Positions 280-25,347 of a DNA stretch of 29,279 nt are shown here, in pieces. The translations under genes and the position numbers were made by a program. Numbering within the stretch: position 1 is the first letter of the stretch; each line of letters starts with the position of its first letter. Below the pieces are notes generated by a model. That model ran no database searches, was not told where the DNA came from, and worked only from the letters and a program-made list of their open reading frames with translations. The DNA comes from Candidatus Acidulodesulfobacterium acidiphilum (lineage in GTDB: Bacteria; SZUA-79; Acidulodesulfobacterales; Acidulodesulfobacteraceae), in the NCBI GenBank assembly GCA_008534395.1, contig SHMQ01000030.1, positions 1 to 29,279 of the forward strand, given 5' to 3'.

Positions 280-371
280 GCGGAAAAGGTGTCAGATTAA
301 TTTTCCGCATTTATGAGGTATATGTAAATTAAAAAAAGTAAAGCGGAAAATTAATCTGGCACCTTTTTTTT
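280..371. repeat. GGTGTC palindromic element, copy A, terminator-like
   Basis: The left arm 284-308 (AAAAGGTGTCAGATTAATTT then TCCGC) pairs with the right arm 343-367 over about 24 bp across a 34-nt loop. One position is a G-T pair that would be G-U in RNA. The right arm runs into eight consecutive T (364-371), so the structure resembles an intrinsic terminator reading rightwards. The left arm can also fold on itself: GCGGAAAA at 280-287 against TTTTCCGC at 301-308 with a 13-nt loop, which excludes the long hairpin. The RBS of the rhodanese gene follows at about 401-406. Confidence 0.8.
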
Positions 372-419
372 CCTTTACGTCACTATCGCAAATTGATAAA
401 AGGGGGAATAAAAAAAGAG

Positions 420-791
420 ATGTTTAATATTTTTAAAAGAGAAGGATTGTTCGGCGATGTCAGCCAGATAACTCCGGATGAGGCATTTAAAAAATTATCT
501 GAAGATAAAGAAAGTAAAAATACGCTGGTAATAGACGTAAGAGAACCGAATGAATATAACGGGAATTTGGGGCATATAGAAAATTCGCACTTGATTCCTA
601 TAAGACTTTTGCCGCTAAAAATTCAGGAATTAGAGAAGCATAAAGATAAGGATATAATTGCGGTATGCCACAGCGGCGCCAGAAGTTATTCCGCATGCAC
701 TATGCTCAAAAGACACGGATTTAATAAGCTTCATAACCTTAAAGGCGGAATGCTTTTATGGAAAAAAATGGGATTAAAAACCCATATGTAA
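420..791 (+). CDS. Rhodanese-like domain protein
   Basis: A single-domain rhodanese-like sulfurtransferase of about 123 residues, probably cytoplasmic. The active-site loop CHSGARS (83-89 from the ATG) has the catalytic Cys83 in the usual CxxGxRS setting. The family features LVIDVREPNEY near residues 36-46 and GHIENSHLIP near 51-60 precede it, and the LKGGMLLWKK C-terminal signature is present. I chose the ATG at 420. A TTG at 393 in the same frame would add nine Lys/Gly-rich residues and lies before the GGGGGA at 402-407. Such proteins carry sulfane sulfur or act in sulfur transfer and detoxification; the substrate cannot be told from sequence. It is followed after 34 bp by the PSRP-type gene and is probably co-transcribed with it. 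A palindrome with a T-run lies directly upstream and may limit read-through into it. Confidence 0.85.
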   Translation: MFNIFKREGLFGDVSQITPDEAFKKLSEDKESKNTLVIDVREPNEYNGNLGHIENSHLIPIRLLPLKIQELEKHKDKDIIAVCHSGARSYSACTMLKRHGFNKLHNLKGGMLLWKKMGLKTHM

Positions 792-825
792 ATTAAATTA
801 TAATATTTTTTTATTAGGCGGAACA

Positions 826-1635
826 ATGAACGATAAAAATTTTCATGTCTTCGTAGTATCCGATTCTACCGGCGAAACGGCGGAAAAGGTCGCAAGGGCG
901 GCTATATCGCAGTTTTCTATTCCCGAGGTGCGCCTTAAGCGTTTCTTATTGATAGATTCGGAATTGAAGTTAAGAGAAATAATAACGGAAGCCGCAGAAA
1001 AAAAAGCGTTGGTTATTTTTACTTTAGTTAAAGACGGGTTGAGAAATATTATGCTTCAGGAATCTGCAGAAAAAGGTATCGTTAGTATCGATATAATAGG
1101 ACCGGTACTTAATTCTATAGCAAATATCCTTAATCTTTTACCGGAAAGAAAGCCCGGTTTAATTCACAGGGTTAACGACGAGTATTTTAAAAGAATAGAT
1201 GCCCTGGAATATGCCGTTAAACACGACGACGGACAGAGGATAGACGAAGTTTTGGAAGCGGATGCCCTTATACTGGGCATATCAAGAACGTCTAAGACCC
1301 CGCTTTGTCTTTTTCTTGCCCAAAGAGGATTTAAGGCGGCTAATATTCCCATAATAGATTCTCAGGTTATAGACGATACGGTATTTAAGGTTCAAAGGAG
1401 TAAAATATTCGGTTTGGTTTCCGATGCAGGAAGAATTTCAAATTTAAGAAAAGAAAGGTTAAAAAGAATGGGGCTGGGTCTTTCACAGGATTACGTATCG
1501 AAAGAATCTATAGAAAAAGAACTTGCCCATTCAATGTCTATATACGCTAAATTAAACGCATATATTATAGATATTACCGATAAATCTATAGAAGAAGTCG
1601 CCGCGGATATAATATCCCGCATAAACAACAAATAA
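826..1635 (+). CDS. PSRP/PDRP-type kinase-pyrophosphorylase (DUF299)
   Basis: This 269-residue protein belongs to the DUF299 family of bifunctional regulators. Members phosphorylate and dephosphorylate a threonine on phosphoenolpyruvate synthase or pyruvate, phosphate dikinase, using ADP and Pi, and so switch gluconeogenic PEP formation on and off. Visible hallmarks are the N-terminal VSDSTGETAE (11-20), the YFKRIDALEYAVKHDDGQ block (about 120-137) and the P-loop-like GISRTSKTPL (151-160). Length is normal for the family. A GGCGG-containing RBS precedes the ATG. No PEP synthase or PPDK gene lies in the window, so the target is inferred from the family only, and sequence alone does not decide between the PpsR and PDRP subtypes. 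Confidence 0.9.
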   Translation: MNDKNFHVFVVSDSTGETAEKVARAAISQFSIPEVRLKRFLLIDSELKLREIITEAAEKKALVIFTLVKDGLRNIMLQESAEKGIVSIDIIGPVLNSIANILNLLPERKPGLIHRVNDEYFKRIDALEYAVKHDDGQRIDEVLEADALILGISRTSKTPLCLFLAQRGFKAANIPIIDSQVIDDTVFKVQRSKIFGLVSDAGRISNLRKERLKRMGLGLSQDYVSKESIEKELAHSMSIYAKLNAYIIDITDKSIEEVAADIISRINNK

Positions 1636-1746
1636 TATCCGGTAAAATAATAACTATCATATTAATTAAACTAACGGAAGACTGGCGGGCAAGCAAAGCA
1701 TAATTTTTAATTAACCGTTGAAAAAAATAAAGGAAATATAAAATAT

Positions 1747-3171
1747 ATGGCTGACTTAGATAAAAAAATAAGGGATGAGAAATTGCAGGGAATCATAGGA
1801 GACGGAAGTCGGTTATTTGATACTGCAGTTTCAATAACCGGCGAATATTGCAAAAATAAAGGAATAGAGTTCGAGCTTTATATGTTTAATTCAAAAGTCC
1901 TCAAAATGGAATCGGAGGACGGCGGCATTTCTAACTACGTAAATGCCGAAACCAACGGTCTGAATATCAGGCTTTTAGATAAAAAGAAGATGAGTTTTTC
2001 TTATTGCCTCGGATTAGAGGGCGATAAAATTTTAAACGCTTTAGAAGGCGCTTACTCGCTTTTAAAATATATGGAAGCGGACGAATTTGCGGAATTTGCG
2101 GAAAAAGAAGACTATTATAGCGGCGATAACGATATATATACTCCCGAAAAATTAGGTATTTATTCCGAAGACGGCAAAGATATAGATATCGATAAAAAAA
2201 AGTCTTTACTGCTTGAAATGGAAGAAACGGCTTATTCATACGACAAAAAAATATACAAAGTAGATAAGCCGTCGTATTCCGAGACATTAATCAATAAAAG
2301 ATTTTGTAATTCAAAAGGAATAGATGTTTCTTCGGTAAAAACTTTTTACGAGATATTTTTGTCTGTTGCGTCGCGGGACGGCGAAGATACCGGTTCGGGC
2401 TTCGATTTTGATTTTTCCCACGGTTTCAGTGCGCTTAAGTTTAAAAAAGCCGCTATGAATGCAGCTAAAAAAGGCGTGGACCAGCTTGGAGCAAGGACGG
2501 TAGCAAGCGGAAATTATCCTGTTGTTTTCGATAACTATACTTCTTCGGAGATTCTTGGGATATTGAAGCAGTCATTTTACGCGGACAGCGTTTATAAAAA
2601 AAAATCGTTATTGGAAGGTAAAATAGGCAAAAAAATATTTTCCGACAAATTAGACATAATAGACGACGGTCTTTTATACGGCGGAGCGCTAACCGATATG
2701 TTCGACAGAGAAGGCGTAAAGATGAAAACGAAAGTTTTATGTTCTTCAGGCACTATAAATTCCTATCTTTATGATATCAGGTACGGAAAAATATACGGCG
2801 TAAAGTCTTCCGGAAATTCGGCGGGGCGTTCGTTTACTCTTCCGCCTGACATAGGCTCCACTAATTTTTTTATAAAAAACGGCGAAACTAATATTTTAGA
2901 TATAATAGGCTCTATAAAAGAAGGACTTTATATAACGGAACTTATGGGTCTTCATATGGCAAAACCTTATACTGGGGAGTTTTCTCTGGGAGCCGCAGGA
3001 TTTTTCGTTAAAAACGGAAAAATAGATTTTCCGGTAAAAGGAATAGCTTTAAGCGGAAATATTATGCAGTTGTTTAACGGCATATCTGCAATAGCGAACG
3101 ACCTGCGTTTTTTCGGTTCGGTCGGCTCGCCTTCTATATTGTTTGAAAATATTCAGGTTTCAGGAAAATAA
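1747..3171 (+). CDS. pmbA: TldE/PmbA family protein
   Basis: A 474-residue member of the TldD/TldE (PmbA) family. In characterised systems TldD and TldE form a heterodimeric cytosolic protease that processes peptides such as microcins and degrades the CcdA antitoxin. TldD carries an HExxxH metal site and TldE does not. No HExxxH is present here, which assigns the protein to the TldE side. Supporting blocks are FNSKGID and DGEDTGSGFDFDF in the middle, YPVVFDNYTSSEILGIL at the start of the C-terminal half, and the closing PSILFENIQVSGK. An AGGA lies about 12 nt before the ATG. No tldD partner is seen in the window. The 111-bp gap before this gene shows no clear promoter. The stop lies 19 bp before the chosen secA start. 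Confidence 0.85.
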   Translation: MADLDKKIRDEKLQGIIGDGSRLFDTAVSITGEYCKNKGIEFELYMFNSKVLKMESEDGGISNYVNAETNGLNIRLLDKKKMSFSYCLGLEGDKILNALEGAYSLLKYMEADEFAEFAEKEDYYSGDNDIYTPEKLGIYSEDGKDIDIDKKKSLLLEMEETAYSYDKKIYKVDKPSYSETLINKRFCNSKGIDVSSVKTFYEIFLSVASRDGEDTGSGFDFDFSHGFSALKFKKAAMNAAKKGVDQLGARTVASGNYPVVFDNYTSSEILGILKQSFYADSVYKKKSLLEGKIGKKIFSDKLDIIDDGLLYGGALTDMFDREGVKMKTKVLCSSGTINSYLYDIRYGKIYGVKSSGNSAGRSFTLPPDIGSTNFFIKNGETNILDIIGSIKEGLYITELMGLHMAKPYTGEFSLGAAGFFVKNGKIDFPVKGIALSGNIMQLFNGISAIANDLRFFGSVGSPSILFENIQVSGK

Positions 3172-3190
3172 AAACGGGGGAACATTTACT

Positions 3191-5839
3191 TTGGTAATGA
3201 AAATATTAAAAAGCATTTTTGGAACGAGCAACCAGAGGGAGATTGCCAGATTAAAGCCTTTAGTAGAAAAGATTAACTCTTTAGAGCCCCAATATTCCGG
3301 TATAGGCGATGACGAAATAAAGAATATTACGCTTAAGTTTAAAGATGAATTAAAAGATATTGCTCCTTCGGAACAGGATAAGAAGCTTGACGAAATTCTG
3401 CCGTTAGCTTTTGCGGTCGCAAGAGAAGGAATAAAACGCGCTCTAGGACTCAGAGCATTTGACGTTCAGCTTATAGGCGCTTCAGTTTTGCATTCAGGAA
3501 AAATAGCCGAAATGGCGACGGGCGAAGGAAAAACTTTAGTTGCGGTTATGCCCGCATATTTAAACAGTTTGACCGGAAGAGGCGTACATATCATAACCGT
3601 TAACGACTATCTTGCAAAAAGAGACGCCGAATGGATGGGCAAGGCATATAATCTGCTTGGTCTTTCAGTCGGGGTTATCACAAACGATATGGACGACGAA
3701 GCAAGAAAAAAAGCTTATAATTGCGACGTAACATACGGCACCAATAACGAATTCGGTTTCGATTATCTCAGGGACAATATGAAATACTCTTTGGAAGATT
3801 ATGTCCAGAGAGAACTTAATTACGCTATAATAGACGAAGTAGATTCAGTTCTTATAGACGAAGCGAGAACACCCCTCATTATTTCCGGCGAATCCGAAGA
3901 AACGACCGAATTATATTATAAAGCCGATAATGCCGTAAGCAAACTTGTTAAAGATGAAGATTTTACAGTCGACGAGAAATTAAAAACCGCTATTATGACC
4001 GAAGAAGGCATAGAAAAAGTAGAAAATGCTTTAAAAATAAAAAACATTTACGACCCTAGGCACTTAGATTTACTGCATGCCGTTAATCAGTCCCTCAGGG
4101 CGCATGCCTGTTATTTTAAAGACGTAGATTATTTAATTCAGGACAATCAAGTAGTCATAGTAGATGAATTTACCGGACGCGTTATGAACGGAAGACGTTA
4201 CGGAGAAGGACTGCATCAGGCATTAGAAGCAAAAGAGCATCTTAAAGTAGAAGGAGAAAACCAGACTCTTGCTACCGTTACTTTTCAGAATTTTTTTAGG
4301 ATGTATAATAAGTTAGCGGGTATGACCGGAACCGCCGATACCGAAGCCGAAGAGTTTAAGAAAATATACAACTTAGACGTCGTCGTTATTCCTACCAATA
4401 AACCTATGGCAAGAAAAGACCATGCAGATTTGGTCTATGCAACGGAAGCGGAAAAATTTAATGCCGTAGCGGACGAGATTGCGGAAAAATATAAAACGGG
4501 GCAGCCTGTTCTAGTAGGAACCGTTTCGGTAGAAAAATCCGAAAGGCTTAGCGGTATTTTAAAGAAAAAAGGAATACCGCATTCAGTTCTCAACGCAAAA
4601 AATAATGCTAAAGAAGCGCAGATTATCGCAAACGCCGGGCAGAAAAAATCCGTTACCATTTCTACGAATATGGCCGGAAGAGGAACGGATATAGTTCTCG
4701 GCGATGGAGTTAAAGATATTGGCGGTCTTCACGTTATAGGAACGGAAAGACATGAGTCCAGACGTATAGACAACCAACTAAGAGGAAGGTCGGGCAGACA
4801 GGGCGACGTCGGTTCTTCAAGGTTTTACGTATCTTTGGAAGACGACCTCATGAGGATATTCGGCTCCGAAAGACTTGCGCCGTTCTTGGAAAAACTTGGA
4901 CTTAAAGACGGACAGGCAATAGAGCATGGGATGATTTCCAAGGCTATAGAAAATGCTCAGAAAAAAGTCGAAGGCCATAATTTCGATATCAGAAAAAATC
5001 TTATAGATTACGACAACGTTATGAATAAACAGAGAGAGCTTATATATTCGTACAGAAAAAGAATGCTTGAGATATGCGATATATCCGAAATAAAAGAAGA
5101 TATAGCATTTGACGTCGAAGCTTTGCTTGAATCTTATTTTGAAACCTACGTCCCCGAAAAAACGCATAGCGAAAATTGGGATATAGAAGGCCTTTTGGAA
5201 ATATTAAAAGTTAGTCTGTCTGCCGATATATTAAGTTTAGAGACTTTAAATTTAAATGCTGGACTGAATATTAATGCCGAATATGCATCTCAGGAAGATA
5301 AAAAAAACGCAGTAATAAATCTATTTAAAAAAATGCCTAGAAGCGAGTTTTTTAATTCGCTTACCGATTTAATTAAAAAAAATATAGATGCAAAGATTGA
5401 ATCATTTCCTGAAGACCAAAAATTAGACATACTGAAAGCTCTTTATCTTCAGGCGGTCGACAGTTTATGGAAAGATGCTTTGACTTCTTTAGACGTTCTC
5501 AAAGAAGGCATAGGGTTAAGGGGCTATGCCCAGGTTAATCCTCTTATAGAATATCAGAAAGAAGCATATTCTTTATTTATAAATATGCAGTTTAGGATGA
5601 AAGAAGAAGCACTGAATTCGATAATAGCAGTTCAGTTTGAAGACGGCATTAACGCCGAAGACATTATAGAGGGCGCAGGACTGCTTTCCGATAACATAAT
5701 ACTGACGCATAACGAAATGAATCAAGGGCAGGAAGAAAAACAAAAACCTATAGTCAAGCCTAAAAAAATAGGAAGGAACGAACCTTGTCCTTGCGGCAGC
5801 GGTAAAAAATATAAAAATTGCCATGGGAAAAATGAATAA
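3191..5839 (+). CDS. secA: Preprotein translocase ATPase SecA
   Basis: SecA drives Sec-dependent export by coupling ATP hydrolysis to preprotein movement through SecYEG. Visible are Walker A ATGEGKT (109-115), the DEVD box of DEVDSVLIDEARTP (215-218), the second ATPase-domain blocks GTVSVEKSE, TNMAGRGTDIVLG and QLRGRSGRQGD, and a C-terminal zinc-binding tail CPCGSGKKYKNCH. About 882 residues, normal for the family. Start choice: GGGGG at 3176-3180 lies 10 nt before a TTG at 3191 and 16 nt before an ATG at 3197. The TTG gives MVMKILKSIFG, which aligns in length with the E. coli N-terminus, so I prefer it; the ATG remains possible. The 3' end overlaps argJ by 17 bp. Confidence 0.97.
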   Translation: MVMKILKSIFGTSNQREIARLKPLVEKINSLEPQYSGIGDDEIKNITLKFKDELKDIAPSEQDKKLDEILPLAFAVAREGIKRALGLRAFDVQLIGASVLHSGKIAEMATGEGKTLVAVMPAYLNSLTGRGVHIITVNDYLAKRDAEWMGKAYNLLGLSVGVITNDMDDEARKKAYNCDVTYGTNNEFGFDYLRDNMKYSLEDYVQRELNYAIIDEVDSVLIDEARTPLIISGESEETTELYYKADNAVSKLVKDEDFTVDEKLKTAIMTEEGIEKVENALKIKNIYDPRHLDLLHAVNQSLRAHACYFKDVDYLIQDNQVVIVDEFTGRVMNGRRYGEGLHQALEAKEHLKVEGENQTLATVTFQNFFRMYNKLAGMTGTADTEAEEFKKIYNLDVVVIPTNKPMARKDHADLVYATEAEKFNAVADEIAEKYKTGQPVLVGTVSVEKSERLSGILKKKGIPHSVLNAKNNAKEAQIIANAGQKKSVTISTNMAGRGTDIVLGDGVKDIGGLHVIGTERHESRRIDNQLRGRSGRQGDVGSSRFYVSLEDDLMRIFGSERLAPFLEKLGLKDGQAIEHGMISKAIENAQKKVEGHNFDIRKNLIDYDNVMNKQRELIYSYRKRMLEICDISEIKEDIAFDVEALLESYFETYVPEKTHSENWDIEGLLEILKVSLSADILSLETLNLNAGLNINAEYASQEDKKNAVINLFKKMPRSEFFNSLTDLIKKNIDAKIESFPEDQKLDILKALYLQAVDSLWKDALTSLDVLKEGIGLRGYAQVNPLIEYQKEAYSLFINMQFRMKEEALNSIIAVQFEDGINAEDIIEGAGLLSDNIILTHNEMNQGQEEKQKPIVKPKKIGRNEPCPCGSGKKYKNCHGKNE

Positions 5840-7019
5840 TTTTTTATATGCAGGTAAAGCCTGCGGGCTTAAAAAAAATAAAGATTTAGATTTGGGATTG
5901 ATGATTTCTAAGTTTCCGCTTAGAGTCAGCGCAGTATTTACTAAAAATAAAGTTAAAGCGGCGCCGGTCGTAATATCTAAAAAAAATTCTAAAAATATTA
6001 TAAAAGCGTTAATAGTGAATTCGGGAAATGCAAATGCATGCAACGGTAAGCAAGGTATGGAAGACGCTCTGCGGGTAGTTAAATCGTTGGCAAAAGAAGC
6101 AGGCATAGATGAAAGCTCCGTTTTTACGTGTTCCACAGGCGTAATCGGCGAAAGGCTTAACGTTTCTTTTATAGAGCATGCAATTCCGGACTTGTTAAAT
6201 TCTGCCGATGAAGAAGGTTTCGATAATTTTACCAAAGCTATTATGACTACCGATACGTTTCCAAAAACAGTTTCCAAAAGCTTTTCGATAAACGGCAGTC
6301 AATATCAAATTAGAGGCTCTGCTAAAGGGTCTGGTATGATTATGCCGGATATGGCTACTATGCTGGCTTTTATATTTACCGACCTTCCTATAAAAAAAGA
6401 AACCGCCGATAAAATGTTTAAAGAATGCGTCGAAGCATCTTTTAATTCTATTACGGTCGACGGCGATACCTCGACTAACGATACCGCTTCGTTTTTTTAT
6501 CCTGCATCTGCTGATACATTTATAGATTTGACGGGAAACGATACCGAATCAAAACATAACTATCAAATAGTAAAAAACGCTTTATTCGAAGTCTGTTACG
6601 AACTTGCAAAAATGATAGTTATCGACGGAGAGGGAGCAACTAAGTTTATTAAAGTCACGGTCGTTAACGCCTCTACTGAAGCAGGCGCAAAGAAAACCGC
6701 GTTAACGATAGCAAACTCGCCGCTTTTTAAAACGATGATAACCGGCGAAGATTTAAATTGGGGCAGAATAATGGCGGCGGTCGGAAGAGCAGGTGTCCCT
6801 CTCAAAGCCGAAAATATTGATATTTACATAAACGGAAAAATTATAGTAGAAAATTCTACTGCTTCTAAAAAATTAACGAAAGATATAGAAAAAACTATAC
6901 TATCTCCTAAAGAAATAGACGTAGAGATAGACTTAAAATCGGGAAATAAAAAGCGTTCCGTTTTAACTTGCAATCTCACCCACGGGTATATAGATATAAA
7001 CGCGTCTTACAGAAGTTAG
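5823..7019 (+). CDS. argJ: Bifunctional ornithine acetyltransferase / N-acetylglutamate synthase
   Basis: ArgJ transfers the acetyl group from N-acetylornithine to glutamate and, in bifunctional members, also makes N-acetylglutamate from acetyl-CoA, giving a cyclic arginine pathway. The diagnostic block KGSGMIMPDMATMLAF contains the autocleavage site, with Thr179 as the new N-terminal nucleophile of the beta chain. VNSGNANACNG (65-75), CSTGVIGE (103-110) and the C-terminal THGYIDINASYRS are also present. 398 residues, full length. The ATG at 5823 lies inside the secA stop region and has no visible Shine-Dalgarno; an ATG at 5832 (MNNFLYAG) is an alternative. Translational coupling to secA is likely. 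No other arg genes are in the window. Confidence 0.95.
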   Translation: MGKMNNFLYAGKACGLKKNKDLDLGLMISKFPLRVSAVFTKNKVKAAPVVISKKNSKNIIKALIVNSGNANACNGKQGMEDALRVVKSLAKEAGIDESSVFTCSTGVIGERLNVSFIEHAIPDLLNSADEEGFDNFTKAIMTTDTFPKTVSKSFSINGSQYQIRGSAKGSGMIMPDMATMLAFIFTDLPIKKETADKMFKECVEASFNSITVDGDTSTNDTASFFYPASADTFIDLTGNDTESKHNYQIVKNALFEVCYELAKMIVIDGEGATKFIKVTVVNASTEAGAKKTALTIANSPLFKTMITGEDLNWGRIMAAVGRAGVPLKAENIDIYINGKIIVENSTASKKLTKDIEKTILSPKEIDVEIDLKSGNKKRSVLTCNLTHGYIDINASYRS

Positions 7020-7031
7020 CGGGCTTATCCC

Positions 7032-7733
7032 ATGAAAATCCCCGTATTATACTACCATAAAATAGACTATCCAAAAAAAGATGCCGTATTTAAAGGTTTA
7101 TACGTAACGCCGGGGCAGTTTAAAAGACAGTTGTCCATCCTTAAATTTTTAGGCTATGAAACTGTGAATCCAAAAGAAATCATGTCTTTTATAAAAGGCC
7201 ATAAACTTTCCGTAAAAAAACCGATTCTTATAACTTTCGACGACGGATACGAAAATAATTATCTTAACGCCTATCCGATATTAAAATCCGCCGGTTTTAC
7301 TTCAATGATATTTATAAGCAGCGGTTTTATAGGAAAAAAAAACGCGGTTTCCGACGAAAGAGAAAGAGTTAAGGAAAACTTTTTAAATAAAAATGAAATA
7401 AAAGAAATGTTTAATGACGGTTTTTTCATAGGTTCGCACGGCATAAACCATTTTTATTTAGACAGACTGGAAGAAGGAGTTATGATAGGCGAACTTATCG
7501 CTTCCAAAGCTTATCTTGAAAATATTACTGGTTCTGCCGTGGAATTTTTCTCCTATCCTTTCGGCGCTTATAACGCGAACGTTATGAGAGCAGTTAAAAA
7601 TGCAGGTTATACTGCTGCCTTTACCACCGTTAACGGCAAAATAGAAGTCGGGGACAACTCCTTTGAACTTAAACGAATCTCTGTAAACGGGTACAATAAT
7701 ATCTTTAATTTTATATTTAAAATATTGTTATAG
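7032..7733 (+). CDS. Polysaccharide deacetylase (NodB domain) family protein
   Basis: A 233-residue stand-alone NodB-homology domain of carbohydrate esterase family 4. Motif 1 is TFDDGY with Asp70 and Asp71. Motif 2 is SHGINH with zinc-ligand candidates His136 and His140. Motif 3 is SYPFGAY (174-180), the YPFG variant typical of IcaB/PgaB-like enzymes. The ELKRISV block (212-218) resembles the C-terminal catalytic motifs. Such enzymes remove N- or O-acetyl groups from glycans. No signal peptide or membrane segment is evident, so export and substrate are open. The gene begins 12 bp after argJ and probably shares its transcript. It ends just before palindromic copy B. Confidence 0.85.
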   Translation: MKIPVLYYHKIDYPKKDAVFKGLYVTPGQFKRQLSILKFLGYETVNPKEIMSFIKGHKLSVKKPILITFDDGYENNYLNAYPILKSAGFTSMIFISSGFIGKKNAVSDERERVKENFLNKNEIKEMFNDGFFIGSHGINHFYLDRLEEGVMIGELIASKAYLENITGSAVEFFSYPFGAYNANVMRAVKNAGYTAAFTTVNGKIEVGDNSFELKRISVNGYNNIFNFIFKILL

Positions 7734-7739
7734 TGCGAT

Positions 7740-7822
7740 AAAGGTGTCAGATTTTATTTTCCGCATAAAGAAAAAATTAATTTATACAAAAATATACTAC
7801 GGAAAATTAATCTGACACCTTT
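7740..7822. repeat. GGTGTC palindromic element, copy B
   Basis: The left arm 7740-7764 (AAAGGTGTCAGATTTTATTT then TCCGC) faces the right arm 7800-7822 (CGGAAAATTAATCTGACACC then TTT) across a 35-nt AT-rich spacer. The outer 12 bp pair perfectly. The middle differs by one extra base (TTTTATTTT against TTAATTTT), which leaves a small bulge, and the CCG/CGG ends pair again. It starts seven bases after the deacetylase stop codon and may act as its transcription end. Strand is not assigned because the element is an inverted repeat. Confidence 0.8.
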
Positions 7823-7823
7823 A

Positions 7824-7837
7824 TCAATTCCGTCCCC
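7824..7837. repeat. Fragment of the GGGGACAGAATTC palindrome family
   Basis: TCAATTCCGTCCCC differs at one of 14 positions from TCAATTCTGTCCCC, the right half of the palindromes amplified at 96-272. It directly follows copy B, so the two repeat families sit side by side here as they do at the left end of the window. Confidence 0.55.
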
Positions 7838-7912
7838 GTCACAAAATGGAAATTTCTTCTTGCAAAAAAAGCCTAAAAATGATAAAAGAATATGTTGATT
7901 TAAAATTAATTT

Positions 7913-7934
7913 AACTTTAACTTTAACTTTAACC
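7913..7934. repeat. Short hexamer tandem repeat (AACTTT)
   Basis: AACTTT occurs three times head to tail at 7913-7930, followed by AACC. It lies upstream of rpsB. This is a simple repeat and no function is assigned. No convincing -35/-10 pair is seen in the 7840-7940 segment, although a promoter for rpsB is expected there. Confidence 0.6.
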
Positions 7935-7943
7935 AAAATCGTA

Positions 7944-7985
7944 TCCGGTTATTAATTTGTGCTTGAAGCTTTTTACGTAACCGGA
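7944..7985 (+). promoter_or_regulatory. Inverted repeat in rpsB leader
   Basis: TCCGGTTA at 7944-7951 and TAACCGGA at 7978-7985 form a perfect 8-bp stem around a 26-nt loop. The stem ends 15 nt before the AAGGAG Shine-Dalgarno (8001-8006) of rpsB. Ribosomal protein operons are often autoregulated through leader RNA folds, and S2 is known to repress rpsB-tsf in E. coli. A similar role here is inference from position only. Confidence 0.4.
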
Positions 7986-8013
7986 GAGAAAAAAGCGCAA
8001 AAGGAGACTAAAA

Positions 8014-8832: not shown

Positions 8833-8926
8833 AATCAAATAAAGTCCTAAATACTTTGCAAATTAATTAATAAGTCAAAATTATATTATTTATTATATAT
8901 GTTATATATCAGGGAGGAAAAATTAA

Positions 8927-9532
8927 TTGGATAATACAAAGAATATAAGCGCCGAACTTGTTAAAAATCTGAGACAGATGACCGGAGCTGGTTTCGTAGA
9001 TTGTAAAAACGTTCTTGTAAAAACCGGAGGAGACCTTGAAAAAGCCGTAGAAGTGTTAAGAAAAAAAGGTCTTGCAAAAGCTCAGAAAAAAGCAGGCAGA
9101 GAAGCCAAAGAAGGTTTAGTCTATTCTTACATACACGCAGGCGGAAGAATCGGCGTTCTTTTAGAAATAAATTGCGAAACCGATTTTGTTGCAAGAACGA
9201 ACGAATTTCAGGAGCTTGCCAAAAATATCGCCATGCATATTGCGGCTTCAAACCCTCTTTATATTAAAAGAGATGGCGTTAAAAATGAAGTTATAGCTAA
9301 AGAAAAAGAGATATACGCAGAACAGCTTGCCAATATGGATAAACCTCAGGCGGTTAAAGAAAAAATAATAGAAGGCAAACTTGAAAAATACTTTCAGGAA
9401 GTTTGTCTGTTGGAGCAGGCTTATATCAAAGATCCGTCAAAAAATATAGCTGCCGTTATAGACAACGATATAGCTAAATTAGGTGAAAATATTATTTTAA
9501 AAAGGTTTGTTCGTTATCAACTTGGTGAATAA
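8927..9532 (+). CDS. tsf: Translation elongation factor Ts
   Basis: EF-Ts recycles EF-Tu by releasing GDP. The N-terminal UBA-like segment [17 protein letters not shown] (12-28) and the catalytic TDFVAR motif (85-90) are present. At 201 residues it is of the short type, much shorter than the E. coli protein of about 280 residues, and lacks most of the C-terminal extension. The start is a TTG at 8927, supported by AGGGAGG at 8911-8917; no nearer ATG fits. The 94-bp gap after rpsB is AT-rich without a clear terminator. The stop codon shares one base with the pyrH start (TAATG), so coupling is likely. Confidence 0.97.
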
Positions 9533-10260: not shown

Positions 10261-10276
10261 TTTAGGAGCTTATGTT

Positions 10277-13553: not shown

Positions 13554-13590
13554 TGTGACTTGGACAGACAGGAAAACATGCAAAAAAATC

Positions 13591-13619
13591 CCGACTTTTC
13601 TGCAAAATTGTTGTATAAT
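13591..13619 (+). promoter_or_regulatory. Candidate promoter downstream of dxr, -10 inside a palindrome
   Basis: CCGACT at 13591-13596 (three of six -35 bases) and a perfect TATAAT at 13614-13619 are 17 bp apart. The -10 lies inside a perfect 7-1-7 palindrome, TTGTATA, A, TATACAA (13611-13625), which could be an operator. The downstream gene starts 240 bp later, past palindromic copy C. Support is from motif match only. Confidence 0.3.
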
Positions 13620-13696
13620 ATACAATTAAACAATCAAACAAAAAATAAATCTAAAACCTTAATCCTGCAATAAAACAACAAAAAACTTATTGATTG

Positions 13697-13705
13697 TGTT
13701 ATAAT
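13697..13705 (+). promoter_or_regulatory. Extended -10 promoter candidate for the carbonic-anhydrase-like gene
   Basis: TGT followed by TATAAT gives a perfect extended -10 element (TGnTATAAT). No good -35 lies at the proper distance, which extended -10 promoters can do without. Transcription would start near 13712, just before copy C, placing that hairpin in the 5' untranslated region of the gene at 13861. Confidence 0.4.
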
Positions 13706-13721
13706 GAGTAGAAAAATGTGA

Positions 13722-13812
13722 GAAAAAGGTGTCGGATTTTATTTTACGCATAAGAATAGAAATAACTAAAAGATAGAAAAATTTTGCGTAAAATTAATCT
13801 GACACCTTTTTC
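13722..13812. repeat. GGTGTC palindromic element, copy C
   Basis: The left arm 13722-13750 begins GAAAAAGGTGTCGGATTTTA and ends TTTTACGCA. The right arm 13785-13812 begins TGCGTAAAATTAATCTGACA and ends CCTTTTTC. The inner block is TTTTACGC/GCGTAAAA, where copies A and B have TTTTCCGC/(G)CGGAAAA. Both arms have changed together, so the pair is preserved. One outer position is a G-T pair. The remainder of the 307-bp gap 13554-13860 holds the two promoter candidates and the flanking 14-bp repeats. Confidence 0.85.
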
Positions 13813-13860
13813 TAATGCAGGATTAAGGTAAAAATTAAACATGAAAGGCCTGGAGGATGT

Positions 13861-14373: not shown

Positions 14374-14374
14374 A

Positions 14375-15319: not shown

Positions 15320-15326
15320 ACAATAA

Positions 15327-16799
<1,473 letters not shown>

Positions 16800-16802
16800 T
16801 CG

Positions 16803-18344
16803 ATGGGAATAAATTCTAAAATACTTATTATAGATTTCGGTTCGCAATATACCCAGCTTATTGCAAGGAAAATCAGGGAAAGCAAGGTTTATTGCGAGAT
16901 ATATCCCTATAATTCTCCGTTAAGCAAAATTAAACAATACAATGCAAATGCAATTATACTTTCAGGCGGGCCGTCTTCGGTTTACGATAAAAATGCTCCC
17001 ATAATTTCTAAGGATTTATTTAAATTAAACGTTCCTTTCTTAGGCATATGTTACGGCATGCAGATTATGGCGCATCTACTAGGCGGAGAGGTCAAACCGG
17101 CTAAAAACAGGGAATACGGCCATTCTAAACTTGAAATACTTCGTAAGAGCAGCCTTTTAAAAGGGTGCGGCAAATCCAGTTTGGTATGGATGAGCCACGG
17201 CGACGTCATAGTGAAAATTCCGACAGGTTTTAAAATAACGGCGCAGACGGAAACCTGCGATACCGCGGCATTTGAATATCCGGAAAAAAAATTTTACGGA
17301 CTGCAGTTTCATCCCGAAGTGGTTCACACCGAATGCGGGACTGATATATTAAATAATTTTTTGTTTAAAATATCAGGCGTTAAAGGCGACTGGGAACTGG
17401 AAGATTTTATATCCGACAAAGTAGGAGAAATCAGGAAAAAAACCGGCGGGGCAAAAGCTATATGTGCTCTTTCGGGAGGAGTCGATTCTACGGTAGCGGC
17501 GGTTATTACCAACAGGGCTATAGGCGGCAACCTTAAATGCATATTTGTCGACAACGGACTTTTAAGAGAATCGGAAGCGAAATCTGTTATGAAGTATTAT
17601 AAGGAAAATCTTAGCCTTAACGTAAAATCAGTCAACGCTTCTGCTTTATTCTTAAAGGAACTTAAAGGGGTGACCGATCCTGAAAGAAAACGTAAAATTA
17701 TCGGCAGGCTTTTTATAAAAATATTCGAAAAAGAAGCTAAAAAGATTAAAGGCGTGAATTTTTTGGTGCAGGGAACGCTTTATCCGGACGTAATAGAATC
17801 CGTTAAAGTTTTCGGCGCCTCAAGCGTAATAAAAAGCCATCACAACGTCGGAGGTCTTCCAAAAAAATTAAATCTAAAATTAATAGAACCCTTAAGGGAA
17901 TTATTTAAAGACGAGGTCCGCGTTATAGGAAAAAAATTAGGAATTCCGGAAGAAATAATAAACAGGCAGCCGTTTCCCGGTCCAGGATTAGCAATAAGAA
18001 TAATAGGGGCGGTGGATAAAAAAAATCTCGATATTTTAAGGAAAGCCGATGCTATAGTTACTCAGGAAATAAAAGCGGCGGGATTATACGATAAAATATG
18101 GCAGTCTTTTCCGGTGCTAGTGCCGGTAAAAACTGTAGGCGTAATGGGCGATAAAAGGAGTTATGAATCGGTAGTGGCTCTTCGCGCCGTGACTTCCGTG
18201 GACGGAATGACCGCCGATTTTGCAAAATTAGATTACGATATATTAAGAACATGTTCTTCAAGGATAATTTCGGAAATTAAAGGGGTTAACAGGGTGGTTT
18301 ACGATATTACTTCAAAACCGCCTTCGACTATAGAATGGGAATAA
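16803..18344 (+). CDS. guaA: GMP synthase (glutamine-hydrolysing)
   Basis: Amidates XMP to GMP. The glutaminase domain has the triad Cys83 (LGICYGMQ), His170 and Glu172 (QFHPEV). The ATP-pyrophosphatase domain starts with the P-loop SGGVDST (224-230), and the dimerisation domain ends with [12 protein letters not shown]. 513 residues, full length. It follows guaB by three bases and precedes dnaE by 19 bp, so the three are probably on one transcript. Confidence 0.98.
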
Positions 18345-18363
18345 AAAACGGAGTAAATTTATA

Positions 18364-21300
18364 ATGAGCGATTTTGTTCATTTGCATCTTCATTCGCATT
18401 ACAGTCTTTTAGACGGCGCAATTAAAATAGACGATATAGTAAATAAAGCTATAGAATTTAATATGCCTGCCGTTGCGGTAACCGACCACGGAAATATGTT
18501 CGGAGCGATAGAATTTTACGAAAAAGCGGTTAAAAAAGGAGTCAAACCTATAATCGGATGCGAAATGTATATTTCAAAATCCGATATGAAACTGAAAAAC
18601 TCAAACGAAAAATTTTATAATCACCTTATTCTTCTTGCAAAAAACGATACAGGTTATCAAAATCTTTCGAAATTAGTTTCTATGTCTTACATAGACGGAT
18701 TTTATTACAAACCGAGAATAGACAAAAATACCTTAAAAGACCATAGCGAAGGATTAGTAGCCATGTCCGCCTGCATTAAAGGCGAAATACCTTACGAAAT
18801 AGTAAAAGGACGATTCGATTCTGCGGAAGAAAGCCTTAAGTTTTATTTAGATATTTTTAAAGACGATTTTTATTTGGAAATGCAGGTTCAGGGTATGGAA
18901 GAACAGCTTACCGCCAACGACGGACTAATAGAGCTTTCCAAAAAATACGGAGTACCTTTAACGGCCACCAACGACTGCCATTATCTTCTCAAAGAGGACT
19001 ATGAAGCTCACGACGTACTTCTTTGCATACAGACCGGAAAGACCGTCGAGGACAAAGACAGATTAAAATTTTCGACTAAAGACCTATATTTTAGGTCGCA
19101 GGACGAGATGAAAGAAATTTTTGGCCGTTACCCTTCCGAAGCTATATCTAATACGCTTTTGGTTGCCGATAAATGCAATTTTTCTTTTAAATTAAAAGGC
19201 GGACACTATTTTCCCCAATTCAAACCCGGAAACGAAGCCGAAAAACTAAAAAACGCAAAATCATCCTTAGGCGCAACCGTCGAAGCGAATGAACGTCAGC
19301 CTGTTAATATAACAGAAACAGCTATTGGAGACGATTTCGATGCCGCCGATTATTTCGAGAAAAAAACAAGGGAAGGTTTCGAGGGAATTTTTATAAAAAA
19401 CCCTTCTAAAGCCGCTGCAGAATCCTATTTAAAAAGAAAGGAAGAATACGAATCAAGATTAGACATGGAAATAGAAGTTATTAAAAAATCTAATTTTGCG
19501 GGATATTTTTTGATAGTTTCCGATTTTATAAAATATGCGAAAGAACATGATATACCCGTCGGTCCGGGCAGAGGTTCCGCCGCCGGAAGCTTAGCCGCCT
19601 ACTGTCTTAAAATTACGGAAATAGACCCCATAAAATACGATTTGATGTTTGAAAGATTTCTTAATCCCGAAAGAATAAGCATGCCCGATATAGACTCCGA
19701 TTTCTGCATAAACGGAAGAGACGAAGTTATTAAATATGTTGCGCATAAATACGGCGAAGAAAAGGTGTCGCAGATAATAACTTTCGGTACCATGCTTGCA
19801 AAAGCCGTTATCAGGGATACCGGCAGGGCTTTGAATATGCCGTATGCAGAAGTCGATAAGATCGCAAAATTAGTTCCGAATACTCTTGGCATTACTTTAG
19901 AAAATGCAATAAAAGAAGAGCCTAAGCTCCGCAATTTAATTGAAACGAACCCTAAGGTAAAGAAATTAATAGAAATAGCAAAAAGATTGGAAGGTCTTGC
20001 CAGGCATGCAAGCACGCATGCCGCCGGCGTAGTAATATCTAACGAACCTATAAACAGTTATATGCCTTTATATAAAGGCACAAAAGAAACGGACGTTATT
20101 ACTACTCAGTATACCGGAACAGATTTAGAAAAACTTGGATTTATAAAGTTCGACTTTCTGGGATTAAAAACGCTTACGGTAATGAATGAGGCTATAAAGC
20201 TTATTAACGAAACTAAATTCCTTCAAAGACTGCAAAGGGAACATGAAGAAGAAGTGGAAAGCGGCGGCTTTAACGAAGATAAGGATTTTAATATATACGA
20301 TATAGATTTAAACGATAAGGCTACGTTTAAACTGCTGGCGGCTGGAGACACCACCGGCGTGTTTCAGTTAGAAAGTTCGGGTATGAAAGAATTGATAAAA
20401 AAGCTGATACCAAATTCATTTGAAGATTTAATTCCTCTCGTAGCTTTGTATAGACCTGGACCGCTAGGAAGCGGCATGGTGGACGATTTTATCAAGGCTA
20501 AGCACGGTAAAGCCAAAATACATTATATTCATCCGTCGCTTAAGGATATTCTCCATGAAACTTACGGCGTAATGCTATATCAAGAGCAGATAATGAGGGT
20601 GGCTACTAATCTTGCCGGATTTTCTATGGGCGAAGCCGACGTTTTAAGAAAGGGCGTAGGAAAGAAGCAGACTGAACTTATCAATCAGATGAAAGATAAG
20701 TTCATAAGCGGATGCAAAGCAAACGGCATAGAAGAGTCGAAATCCGAAAAGATTTTTTCCCTTATAGTAAAATTCGGAGAATACGGCTTCAATAAATCAC
20801 ATTCCACCGCCTATGCATATATTGCATATATGACTGCATATTTAAAAGCTAATTATAAAGAGCATTTTACCGCCGCTCTTTTATCCAGCGAAATGACAAA
20901 TGCGGATAAATTGACTAAGATAATAAACGAAGCAAAATCGGGAATGAACGCATGCGAAATATTACCGCCGTCGGTTAACGAATCGTCCGAAAGGTTTGCT
21001 ATAGTCGAAAAAAGAATTTGCGCGGATAATTGTGAAGATAAAAACAAAGAATTTGCCGGCGGTACGGTTAAGTTAGCTATAAGGACAGGCTTGGGAGCCG
21101 TAAAAAACGTCGGCAAAGCCGCCATAGATTCTATTTTGCAGGCTCGCTCAGACAAGCCTTTTAGAGACTTGTTAGATTTTTGTTCAAGGGTAGATACCAG
21201 GAAAGTCAATAAGAGGACGATAGAAAACTTGATTAAAAGCGGGGCTTTAGATATAGGCGGAGAATCGAGGAAATGGATGCTAGATAATCTTGAAGCGGTA

Positions 21301-22254
21301 ATGGAAGAATCTATCCGCAAAAGAGAAAAAGAAGATTCCGGACAGGCCGATTTATTCGGTTCATCATCGGAAGGTATAGATTTTGATGCAGGAAAAAACG
21401 ATTCCTATTTAACGGCTGCAGGAGAAAAAGACGATATAAAATCCATCCTTGCTTTTGAAAAAGAGTCGCTCGGTTTCTATCTGTCGGGGCATCCTTTAGA
21501 CGGTTATGAAGAAAAATTAAAACTTCTTAAAATAAAACCCGTAACCGATATAGTAAGGGAATATATAGAAGCAAAAGGAAAAATTCCTCAGGATGCTTCA
21601 TATAAAGTCGTGGGAGTAATAAATCAGCTTAAAATCCGCAAGACTAAAAGCAACGATAAAATGGCTTCTTTTATATTAAACGACAATAATTCGAATATAG
21701 AAACCGTGTTTTTTCCAAAAAGTTTTTTAAAATACGAAGATGTGTTATCTACTAATCAGCCGGTAATTATTACGGGGAGAATAGATTTTTCGGGCTTAGA
21801 CATTTCCGCCTTAAGCGGCAAAGGAATACAGGCGGCGGATGACGAAAATTTATCGGACATCGAAGCCTCGGAAAACGGCATATACAAACTGGAAGATAAC
21901 GCATTAACGGAAAACGCAGGGCAAAACGCTGCTTTAATTAACGGAGACGCAGATCTGGGCATTAAAATTGTCGGCGAAAGCATAGAACTGCTTGATGCGG
22001 TAAAAGTTAAACTGCCGGTAAAACCTGCTGGAGAAGCCTGTATTATAGAGATAAAAGACAATGTTGTTATGCTTGACGGCGCCGAATTTAAAAAAATGCT
22101 TTTTGAAATTAAAAAAAGTTTTTCAGAAGCAAAAGGAAGCGATAAGGTAATATTCAAAATTTCGGGATACAGCATTACCCTTGGAGAAAATATTGCCGTG
22201 GACAAATCTTTATTGAAATCCAATCCGTTATTTAATTACTTGAATATTATTTGA
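18364..22254 (+). CDS. dnaE: DNA polymerase III subunit alpha
   Basis: Replicative DNA polymerase of the DnaE type, 1296 residues against about 1160 in E. coli. An N-terminal PHP domain (about 1-280) begins [15 protein letters not shown] and appears to keep a full metal site: His8, His10, Asp17, His42, Glu67, His87, Cys137, Asp204, His206. The palm carries PGRGSAAGS (401-409) and the catalytic DIDSDF (442-447), with a third Asp in KFDFLGLKT. Helix-hairpin-helix and OB-fold segments follow (OB around [18 protein letters not shown]). Extra residues appear at about 287-325, at about 620-640 (acidic, [10 protein letters not shown]) and near the C-terminus. It is followed by accA, a pairing also seen in E. 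coli. Confidence 0.97.
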
Positions 22255-22267
22255 TAGATGGTATAAT
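22240..22267 (+). promoter_or_regulatory. Candidate promoter for accA
   Basis: TTGAAT at 22240-22245 (four of six -35 bases) and a perfect TATAAT at 22262-22267 are separated by 16 bp, overlapping the last codons of dnaE. The predicted start near 22274 leaves an AT-rich leader of about 76 nt before the accA ATG. The rest of the gap 22255-22349 shows only AT-rich sequence. Confidence 0.4.
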
Positions 22268-22349
22268 AAAAAAAACAAAAATATAAAAGAGTTACATTTA
22301 ACAAACAAATAAAATAATAATAATAAGTAAAAAAATATAAAATATTATC

Positions 22350-23294
22350 ATGGCATTACAGTATTTGGATTTTGAAAAACCCATCATAGAACTGGAACAG
22401 AAGATAGAAGAACTTAAGACTTTTAATCTTGGAGGATTTGCCGACGTCGAAGACGAGATTAAAAACCTTGAAACAAAAAAAGAAAAACTTATAAAAGATA
22501 TTTTTAAAAATATAAACAACTGGCAGATTACCCAGTTGTCAAGGCATCCGCTGAGACCATACGCTATGGATTATATAGAAACGGCGGCGGAAAATTTTAT
22601 AGAACTTCACGGCGACAGGCGGTTTATGGACGACAAAGCGGTAATAGGCGGATTCTGTTTCATGAACGATGAGCGGGTGCTTATAGTCGGACACCAGAAA
22701 GGGCGGAACACTAGAGATAAAATGTGCAGAAATTTCGGCATGCCGCATCCTGAAGGCTACAGAAAAGCGCAAAGACTTTTTAAGCTTGCCGACAGGTATA
22801 AAATTCCTATCGTCACGCTGATAGATACTCCTGGGGCATATCCCGGTTTAGGTGCGGAAGAAAGAGGACAGTCCGAGGCTATAGCGGAAACGATATACGA
22901 ATTATTAAACGTTAACGTTCCGGTGATATCGGTAATTATAGGAGAAGGCGGAAGCGGAGGCGCTCTTGCTTTTGGAACAGGCAACAGCGTATTAATGATG
23001 GAATATTCCGTTTATTCGGTTATATCGCCTGAAGGATGCGCTTCTATTTTATACAAAGATACTTCTAAAACGGAAGAAGCGGCGAATTCTCTGAAATTAA
23101 CCGCAAAAGACCTGCTTAACGACTCCAAGGCCATAGACGGCATTATAGCGGAACCTCTCGGCGGCGCGCACAGGGACCCTAAACTTGCCGCCGAAAATTT
23201 AAAGAAAGCAGTCTTGGAAAATATAAACGAATTGAAAAAATACAAAGGGGAAGATTTAAGAAACCAAAGAATTGAAAAGTTTTCCAAATTTTAA
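22350..23294 (+). CDS. accA: Acetyl-CoA carboxylase carboxyltransferase subunit alpha
   Basis: With AccD it forms the carboxyltransferase that makes malonyl-CoA for fatty acid synthesis. The N-terminus MALQYLDFEKPIIELEQKIE matches the family exactly in position, which fixes the start although no Shine-Dalgarno is visible. LSRHPLRPYAMDYI, IGHQKGRNT-like GHQKGRNTRDK, DTPGAYPG, GEGGSGGALAFG and ISPEGCASILYKD are the carboxyltransferase motifs. 314 residues, full length. accD is not in the window. Confidence 0.97.
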   Translation: MALQYLDFEKPIIELEQKIEELKTFNLGGFADVEDEIKNLETKKEKLIKDIFKNINNWQITQLSRHPLRPYAMDYIETAAENFIELHGDRRFMDDKAVIGGFCFMNDERVLIVGHQKGRNTRDKMCRNFGMPHPEGYRKAQRLFKLADRYKIPIVTLIDTPGAYPGLGAEERGQSEAIAETIYELLNVNVPVISVIIGEGGSGGALAFGTGNSVLMMEYSVYSVISPEGCASILYKDTSKTEEAANSLKLTAKDLLNDSKAIDGIIAEPLGGAHRDPKLAAENLKKAVLENINELKKYKGEDLRNQRIEKFSKF

Positions 23295-23330
23295 ATTCAT
23301 TAATATTCAATAATAACGTTTTATTCCTTT

Positions 23331-25121
23331 ATGGTAGAATATCCGGATATTGCTTATTTTCTTTCAAAAGACCTTATTTCTAAAAATTCCAGAGAAGAAA
23401 TATACGAAAAAATTTCGATAACGGCCTCTAAATTTATAAAGAGCGATATCGTCACTATTTTTATGCTCAACGAGGATACCGAAAAAATAAACTGCGTAAA
23501 TTACTACAAGGACGGAAAATTTATAAAGAAAGATTTAGAAATATTGCTCGGCGAAGGTTTAATAGGTTCGGTTATAGAGAACGGCGAATCTTTGGTCAGT
23601 TCTAATTTAAAAACGGATTTATCGGATATATATTATGAACTTGAAAAACAGTTTACTGGAATGTCGTCTATGCTCAGCGTTCCTATTTATGCAGGATCGT
23701 TAGTTTTAGGCGCTTTAAATATATACGGCAAAGAAATATATGAATTTTCGGAAGAAGAAGTAAAAATAGCCAAGTTTATCGCTATGCTGGGCGGTATTTT
23801 CATATACAGCCTGACCCTTTACGAAAACGCAAATCTTTTATACTTAAGGCAAAAAGATGAAAGCCGCAAAATATCCGATTTGTTGGAAATTTCAAAATTA
23901 GTCTCTTCGTCTTTAGACCTTACCAGTATTATCGAATACTCTATAAAAAGGCTTATGAATTATACCAAAACGGATTCAGCGCTCGTATATCTTAAAGAAA
24001 ACAATAAAGATGTAAATAAATTCTGTTATGAATTTTTTAACTGCAATGTGACGGGATGTTCTAATTACGGCGGGAGTATCAACTGTTATAATATCACGGA
24101 TTTCAGCTGTCCTTTCGTAAAATGCCCTCCGGAAAATAAAATACTTCAAAAATGCAACGCTTGCGATTTCTTCAAAAATATTTCATTAAAATTATTTAAC
24201 GCTTACAATATGGATGCTTCGTTTTCCGGCCACGATACGTTGAAATTAAACGATTGTAAATGTTTAAAAACCGTAAGTTCCGATTATCCGACTATAAATT
24301 ATTATGAAGACGATTCCGTTTCAGGAAGCGAAAACAATTCGCCGTGCGATTGTTTTTTGAAAGATATTTCTAAAAAAACTTTTATAGCTATTCCCGTTAA
24401 GACCGACAAAGATTTTCTCGGTCTTATTTTTCTTTTAGGAAAAATAAAAACGGAATATTCAATGGAAACTATCGATTTTACAGCAAATATTTCAAGCATA
24501 ATTTCAGTAGCGGTTTATAACGCGCAAACGCTTAACTATATCGAAGAAGAACATTTTGAAACTATAAGCTCTATATCCGAAGCTATAGAAGCAAGAGATA
24601 CATATACGAGAACTCACGGCGACCGGCTTATAGATTACGGCGTTATGGTTGCTAAGGAACTTGGGCTAAGCCATAACGAAATTAAAAATATAAGATATGC
24701 GGCGGCAATGCACGACGTAGGAAAGATAGGCATAAAAGATTCAATATTAAACAAGCAGGGCAAACTTACGGACGAAGAATACGAAGAGATTAAAAAACAT
24801 CCGGAAATAGGCTATAATATGCTAAAAAAAATAAAGTTTTTAAGCCATATAGCAAACGACGTTCTTCACCATCAGGAAAGATACGACGGAAAAGGCTATC
24901 CATTCGGTCTTTCCGGCGAAGATATCCCTATAGCCTCAAGAATTATAGCGGTAGTGGATACTTTCGACGCAATGACGACCGACAGGCCATACAGAAAAGC
25001 TCTTCCGGTTGAAACGGCGCTGGAAGAAATTAAAAAAAATTCCGGAACGCAATTCGACCCGAATGTAGTCGAGGCATTTTTGAAAGCCGTCAAGTCGGGG
25101 GGGGGGGGGTACCCTTACTAA
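23331..25121 (+). CDS. GAF-GAF(Cys-rich)-HD-GYP c-di-GMP phosphodiesterase
   Basis: A soluble 596-residue signalling protein. The first GAF domain spans about 10-165 (LGEGLIGSVIENGE, LSVPIYAGSLVLGALNIYG). A second GAF domain spans about 183-400 and is interrupted by a Cys-rich insert at 232-341 with twelve Cys: 232, 238, 243, 252, 260, 265, 275, 278, 309, 311, 339, 341. The HD-GYP output domain lies at about 410-590: HGDRL, HDVGKIGI (461-468), HHQERYDGKGYP (513-524), SRIIAVVDTFDAMTTDRPYR. HD and GYP residues are intact, so c-di-GMP hydrolysis is expected. The 3' end holds a run of 13 G, giving the tail SGGGGYPY. No Shine-Dalgarno is clear. It lies 36 bp after accA; a functional link to accA is not apparent. 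Confidence 0.9.
   Translation: MVEYPDIAYFLSKDLISKNSREEIYEKISITASKFIKSDIVTIFMLNEDTEKINCVNYYKDGKFIKKDLEILLGEGLIGSVIENGESLVSSNLKTDLSDIYYELEKQFTGMSSMLSVPIYAGSLVLGALNIYGKEIYEFSEEEVKIAKFIAMLGGIFIYSLTLYENANLLYLRQKDESRKISDLLEISKLVSSSLDLTSIIEYSIKRLMNYTKTDSALVYLKENNKDVNKFCYEFFNCNVTGCSNYGGSINCYNITDFSCPFVKCPPENKILQKCNACDFFKNISLKLFNAYNMDASFSGHDTLKLNDCKCLKTVSSDYPTINYYEDDSVSGSENNSPCDCFLKDISKKTFIAIPVKTDKDFLGLIFLLGKIKTEYSMETIDFTANISSIISVAVYNAQTLNYIEEEHFETISSISEAIEARDTYTRTHGDRLIDYGVMVAKELGLSHNEIKNIRYAAAMHDVGKIGIKDSILNKQGKLTDEEYEEIKKHPEIGYNMLKKIKFLSHIANDVLHHQERYDGKGYPFGLSGEDIPIASRIIAVVDTFDAMTTDRPYRKALPVETALEEIKKNSGTQFDPNVVEAFLKAVKSGGGGYPY
25097..25109 (+). repeat. Homopolymeric run of 13 G at the 3' end of the HD-GYP gene
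   Basis: Thirteen consecutive G follow AAGTC and precede TACC. The tract encodes the end of a Ser and four Gly. Losing one G would change the tail from GGGGYPY to GGGGTLTK; gaining one would give GGGGVPLLNNNY. All three versions stop within about ten codons. Such tracts slip easily during replication, and they are also a common place for sequencing or assembly errors. Confidence 0.9.
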
Positions 25122-25150
25122 ATAATAATTACTAAATTATTTAAAAAAAA

Positions 25151-25250
25151 AATAAAGGTGTCAATAAAGGTGTCAATAAAGGTGTCAGATTTATTTATTT
25201 TCTTACTCAATAAAGGTGTCAGATTTATTTATTTTAGATTTATTTATTTT
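25151..25250. repeat. Degenerate direct repeats derived from GGTGTC element arms
   Basis: AATAAAGGTGTC is repeated three times in tandem (25151-25162, 25163-25174, 25175-25186) and again at 25209-25220. AGATTTATTTATTTT follows the third and fourth copies and is itself duplicated (25187-25201, 25221-25235, 25236-25250). The core AAAGGTGTCAGATTT is the start of a left arm of the palindromic family, without matching right arms. This looks like slippage or template-switch expansion of half-elements. The gap 25122-25403 holds this block and copy D and nothing else that I can recognise. Confidence 0.8.
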
Positions 25251-25277
25251 CTTACTTACGTCTGCGTTTGCTGGTTT

Positions 25278-25347
25278 TGAGAAAAAGGCGTCGGATTTTA
25301 ATTGACTGTTTAGTATGCGGAAAATAAAATCCGACGCCTTTTTCTCA
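25278..25347. repeat. GGTGTC palindromic element, copy D (GGCGTCGGA variant)
   Basis: A perfect 23-bp inverted repeat: the left arm 25278-25300 contains GAAAAAGGCGTCGGATTTTA and the right arm 25325-25347 contains TAAAATCCGACGCCTTTTTC, with a 24-nt loop. Compared with copy B two base pairs have changed, both compensated in the opposite arm (T-A to C-G and A-T to G-C). The right side continues inwards with GCGGAAAA, but the left has lost its TTTTCCGC partner. The right arm carries a T5 run. The hairpin lies 158 bp after the HD-GYP stop codon and 57 bp before cobQ. Confidence 0.85.

Follow-up and report, generated by a model that had tools for sequence, protein, structure and literature searches.

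The short palindromes that recur between the genes of Candidatus Acidulodesulfobacterium acidiphilum are probably a REPIN-like hairpin family without the GTAG tag. They would represent a gene-less derivative of TIRYT units, in which terminal inverted repeats (TIRs) flank a RAYT-like Y1 transposase gene, and a TIRYT is the presumed agent of their movement. We chose this description because the arms are of the TIRYT type, the unit as a whole appears to work in the manner of a REPIN, the GTAG tag is missing and single arms do not form hairpins themselves. The family is dispersed over about 65 sites in the genome, its sites can be found empty in sister species, its ends are sharp, its arms covary and these arms are held in common with the TIRs of TIRYTs.

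Our starting point was a window of 29,279 nucleotides (contig SHMQ01000030.1, here C30), in which an earlier note, made from the sequence alone, had described four copies (A to D) of one palindromic element, all of which are present. Placing the element borders by the conserved ends GRAAAAGG...CCTTTTYC, copy A occupies 282..369 (plus strand, orientation uncertain), reading GGAAAAGG...CCTTTTTT with both inner arms TTAATTTT; copy B (7737..7825, plus strand, GATAAAGG...CCTTTATC) belongs to a CCG subfamily and is absent from the genome G002; copy C (13722..13812, plus strand, GAAAAAGG...CCTTTTTC) belongs to an ACG subfamily and is absent from G002, G005, G012 and G015; and copy D (25281..25344, minus strand) is internally shortened, with arms GGCGTCGG/CCGACGCC. 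These copies fall in the gene-free stretches longer than 250 bp, which on the ORF list are the window start, 7734-8013, 13554-13860 and 25122-25403, an observation with some circularity to it, since those gaps owe part of their length to the repeats. The compensated changes between arms that had been claimed for copies D (T-A to C-G and A-T to G-C) and C (C-G to A-T) are real, as are the G.T pairs in copies A and C. Folded as single strands, the window copies gave z-scores between -8.2 and -8.9 for DNA and between -8.6 and -10.3 for RNA, none of 200 shuffled sequences was as stable, and the arm motif was matched 14 times in the window against 3.0 expected.

The window also holds solo arms (AATAAAGGTGTCAGATTTATTTATTTT, 25173-25201 and 25207-25235) which lie, together with a tandem repeat of 12 nt from the outer arm, within 25151..25250 on the plus strand. 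Tandem duplication of the outer 12-13 nt of the arm (GAAAAAGGTGTCA) on one side is seen directly beside many copies, at C5:88746, C11:34549, C14:23533, C17:21914 and others in the same genome, and likewise at window 25151-25187. Close by, the gene at 23331-25121 has towards its 3' end a run of about 12 G residues (25100-25112), possibly a slippage-prone tract or an effect of assembly.

The supposed orphan arm at 11-38 proved to be no orphan, being the right arm (12..38, plus strand) of a fifth full copy that is cut by the contig edge and whose remainder lies on contig C21 (C21:34504-34613). The final 127 bases of C21 are identical to window 1-127, and the two contigs therefore adjoin in the genome; an exact overlap of 127 nt is typical of k-mer assembler output at a repeat. 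A tandem repeat at 94..276 (no strand assigned) could be what broke the assembly between C21 and C30. It consists of a related-looking short palindrome, GGACAGAATTCAATTCTGTCC, with a 38-nt period, identical copies and GGGGACAG ends that resemble TIRYT TIRs, and this palindrome also occurs at other loci of the same genome and of its relatives.

A covariance-model search of the genome and related genomes, which the earlier note had proposed, revealed many further copies. With a model built from 29 copies, 65 loci of about 89 bp each were found in the 2.09 Mb draft from which the window derives (G000), and a motif pattern for the arms gave 56+53 matches genome-wide compared with none for the reversed control pattern. 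Judged by simple ORF calls, 59 of the 65 copies are intergenic, one overlaps an ORF end and five at contig edges are unclassified; the intergenic copies occupy 43 tandem, 11 convergent and five divergent gaps. The high copy number and intergenic placement that mark REPINs and GTAG REPs are thus found here. Genus-mates hold from zero copies to roughly the number in G000, and G016, which belongs to another genus of the same family, carries about 50 near-identical copies of a variant with inner arms TTTTTT rather than TTTTMCG. A search of known plasmids found no similar copies, and a literature search on the GGTGTCAG repeat returned nothing relevant.

Eight G000 sites could be compared with close relatives that retain the same gene neighbours, and for every site at least one relative lacked the copy, which indicates that the copies spread recently. 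At the cleanest of these (C17:18361), the hairpin alone has been added, from its G to its C, with a few target bases also differing; no target-site duplication is visible at this one site, the only one clean enough to judge. Other new copies arrived within larger insertions, and new hairpins are nested in the remnants of older ones. At C17:24494 (locus L133, about 7695-7788), one and the same gap is occupied in G000 and G002 (locus L215) by hairpins that point in opposite directions, and G000 also retains remnants of an older copy, reflecting either nested re-insertion or inversion.

The outermost three nucleotides differ among copies (GAA, GGA, GAT, AAA, GTT, CAA) yet match between the two arms in 112 of 126 copies, whilst pairing outside them is at the level of chance (mean 0.53 vs 0.46 pairs, P 0.14), and together these observations define where the borders of the unit lie. 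Pairing that extends into the host flanks, as palindromic-target insertion or outward copying would entail, was considered and rejected, since flank pairing is at chance. We examined covariation, for which the earlier note had called for a statistical test, using an R-scape-like procedure in which changes were placed randomly on the inferred tree of 116 distinct copies from four genomes. Two stem pairs covary (alignment columns 1-118 and 27-94, both with E about 0), a further stem pair (28-93) has the third-highest score among all pairs with E 0.57, and none of the 3,546 non-stem pairs reaches E<0.05, all of these E-values being rough because the tree was built on short sequences. Double changes on the same branch number 31 in the stem, compared with 3-11 when partners are shifted by one to three columns. 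Covariation between the arms therefore exceeds the phylogenetic expectation, and the family shares with REPINs the form of an inverted doublet folding as a single hairpin, in which changes on one side are compensated on the other.

How this complementarity is maintained can be read in more than one way. The earlier note offered selection on the hairpin or a copying process that needs one, and these stand as two options that our data do not separate. In 11 of the 126 copies the inner arms are identical to each other, despite the asymmetry of the family, which most copies keep; this suggests that some arm-to-arm copying probably occurs. Taken further, it may be that the arms of TIR-type hairpins evolve in concert through hairpin-templated copying, either while the element transposes or afterwards. 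New paired subfamilies would then appear at once rather than by stepwise compensatory selection, and the hairpin would also be carried as a passenger of an unrelated MITE in a genome without a RAYT-type gene, but we regard this broader scheme as rather unlikely.

The link to transposases comes from the TIRs. The genome has one Y1_Tnp gene (C68:64-867), encoding a RAYT-like protein of 267 aa (Y1_Tnp E 4e-14), and across nine aligned proteins H60-V-H62 and Y121 are invariant, giving both the HUH motif and the catalytic tyrosine. The suggestion that a Y1 gene would be found flanked by the arms of the family holds in related genomes (G009, Desulfocapsa-type loci and NZ_CP116719.1) and fails at the C68 gene, alongside which no arms or TIRs were found. 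At seven Desulfocapsa-type and similar loci, GGGGACAGATTTATTTTT, which comprises GGGGACAG and then an AT-rich tract (e.g. ATTTATTTTT), lies 51-53 nt upstream of the start codon, and at several related Y1 genes an inverted CTGTCCCC-type arm lies over or just after the stop codon. In G009, from the same genus, GGYGTCAG arms flank the Y1 gene, its stop codon lying within AATAAATAAATCTGACGCCTTTATT and matching inverted arms lying upstream. In NZ_CP116719.1, perfect TIRs AAAGGGGACAGATTTATTTTCCC enclose each of three genes, whose products are 53%-identical or similar proteins, and in the clearest case, by our own count, 20 of 24 positions of this TIR are identical to the G000 arm at C10:12005. The same record, which is a 24-kb Pseudomonas aeruginosa entry (L259), has matches to the related TIR at 23 places amid a cluster of small cassette genes, and several TIRYT genes. 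All 16 genus genomes searched contain solo arms of the AAAGGTGTCAGATTTATTTATT type, with 59 in G000 at up to two mismatches, some of which are hairpin arms; solo arms with GGGGTCAG and with GGGGACAG are present in G000 too. The GGGGACAG core of the related genes fits the TIRYT consensus GGGGWSAS, and the GGTGTCAG core of the hairpin arms is one base off. For the transposase itself, a Pfam search for a C-terminal HTH found none even at E 10, an AlphaFold model of a related-locus protein (mean pLDDT 50) gave nothing usable on this point, and no sequence relatives were found in the PDB at E 0.01.

TnpAREP is thought to move REPINs, and we envisage a comparable arrangement here. The non-autonomous element, some 89 bp long and made up of GRAAAAGGTGTCAGATTTTATTTTMCGC, a spacer of roughly 30 nt and GCGKAAAATTAATCTGACACCTTTTYC, would correspond to both TIRs of a TIRYT unit minus the gene, and would fold when its DNA is single-stranded. 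A TIRYT working in trans may then cut the hairpin at its foot and move it, and if only well-paired copies were recognised, then the arms would remain complementary whilst their sequence drifted into subfamilies, with part of the arm identity probably renewed by hairpin-templated copying. Three points in the sequences speak against movement driven by a TIRYT: copy number does not go with the presence of a RAYT-type gene, the C68 gene has no arms beside it, and most copies in G016 are found close to an end of a second mobile unit. With regard to the first of these, no correlation was visible across the genomes: copies are numerous in G012, G014 and G016, in which a RAYT-type gene was not found (G012 and G014 being incomplete and G016 99% complete), whereas G003 and G004 combine the gene with a small number of copies.

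The second unit is a larger inverted repeat with ends CCTTAATCCTGCA/TGCAGGATTAAGG, which encloses copy C in the window (13657..13828, no strand assigned) and also contains several further copies. Units of this kind around a hairpin were seen in the window and at L113, L121, L149 and L154, and are more frequent in G016 than in G000. Copies within 130 nt of a CCTTAATCCTGCA MITE end make up 41 of 48 in G016 (14 of these with both ends) as opposed to 15 of 65 in G000, so that the hairpin in G016 may travel as a passenger, and in some lineages it may also have spread in this way inside the second MITE. If one extends this to the whole family, the hairpin would have no transposition system of its own, being spread by the CCTTAATCCTGCA MITE, nested insertions and recombination, with complementarity kept by hairpin-templated repair (quasipalindrome correction). 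The proximity to MITE ends, the copies with identical inner arms and the poor match between copy number and the RAYT-type gene would all be in line with this. Nevertheless, 50 of the 65 G000 copies have no such MITE end nearby, the hairpin alone was added at C17:18361, the asymmetric inner arms kept in most copies imply that whole-arm copying is infrequent, and the element has sharp ends, so we consider this account unlikely.

It is less likely still that the palindromes are retained as functional RNA hairpins, for example as intrinsic terminators or as stabilisers of mRNA at gene ends. As RNA the copies would form stable hairpins that a run of U follows, 31 of the 43 copies in tandem gaps of G000 point the same way as the genes (P 0.005), and on the gene-oriented strand G.T pairs outnumber A.C pairs (48 vs 25, although these cells are not independent). 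Against this, sites in sister species are empty or otherwise occupied, five copies lie in divergent gaps, distances to upstream gene ends and downstream gene starts are alike (medians 64 vs 73 nt, P 0.29), orientation in G016 is unbiased with respect to local skew or ORFs (20/38 and 19/38), and a search of the window against Rfam gave no match. A terminator role in particular was rejected on the lack of position preference, the failure of the G000 orientation agreement to recur in G016, and the empty or differently occupied orthologous gaps in relatives. The orientation of 42 of the 65 G000 copies follows positive local GC skew; a replication-strand bias was looked for in G016 and discarded (20/38). 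Finally, the elements are short, non-coding and dispersed with inverted-repeat ends, as would be a MITE with GRAAAAGGTGTCAG ends mobilised by a DDE transposon that shares these TIRs and duplicates its target, but the clean site lacks a target duplication and the same TIRs flank Y1 rather than DDE transposase genes, making this highly improbable.

We therefore return to the REPIN-like, gene-less TIRYT derivative and to how it stands among known systems. The earlier guess of REP/BIME elements mobilised by RAYTs was right in kind, given the sequence link to RAYT-like Y1 transposases and the gene at C68, and wrong as to subclass: the foot of the hairpin is GRAAAAGG, the consensus has no GTAG there, and the arms are of the TIR type (GGTGTCAG/GGGGACAG). 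The sections of Di Nocera et al. 2013 (PMC3733652) on which we draw define the TIRYT/TIRtron class as a RAYT-like Y1 gene flanked by TIRs, and those of a later study (PMC6006769) tie TIRYTs to TnpAY1 subclass 2.1, with the flanking consensus GGGG[AT][CG]A[CG] and a C-terminal HTH. In these sections, the TIRYT literature, of which our search found two papers that use the name (2013 and 2018), consists of sequence surveys rather than enzyme tests on repeats. The present data connect one clade of RAYT-like transposases, the TIRYTs, with an extensive family of hairpins whose ends are sharp and whose covariation has been measured. With its empty sites in sister genomes, its well-preserved copies and an intact gene, the system is well suited to asking whether TIRYTs move hairpins.

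The family resembles TIRYTs/TIRtrons in its RAYT-like Y1/HUH gene, in a GGGGWSAS-like TIR core about 52 nt upstream of the start and over or after the stop, in the dispersal of TIRs as solo copies and dimers, and in the absence of GTAG REPs. It differs in that its core is mostly GGTGTCAG, one base from that consensus, that a hairpin dimer of fixed spacing (about 89 bp) dominates, and that the genome's own gene has no TIRs; the C-terminal HTH of TnpAY1 subclass 2.1 was likewise undetected here with Pfam. DDE-transposon MITEs are similarly gene-less and dispersed with inverted-repeat borders, but here the clean site has no target-site duplication and the inverted repeats correspond to those found at Y1 genes. 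Compared with REPINs and their RAYTs, the GTAG tag is absent, a single arm is not a palindromic REP, and mobility is deduced. The likenesses to REPINs are an inverted doublet with a spacer that forms one hairpin, intergenic placement in tens of copies, a RAYT-like gene in the genome, and compensatory changes between the two sides, which have already been described as common in REPINs (Bertels and Rainey 2011, PMC3116915). The hairpin family is thus a new but unsurprising addition to a class of bacterial mobile repeats that is already known.
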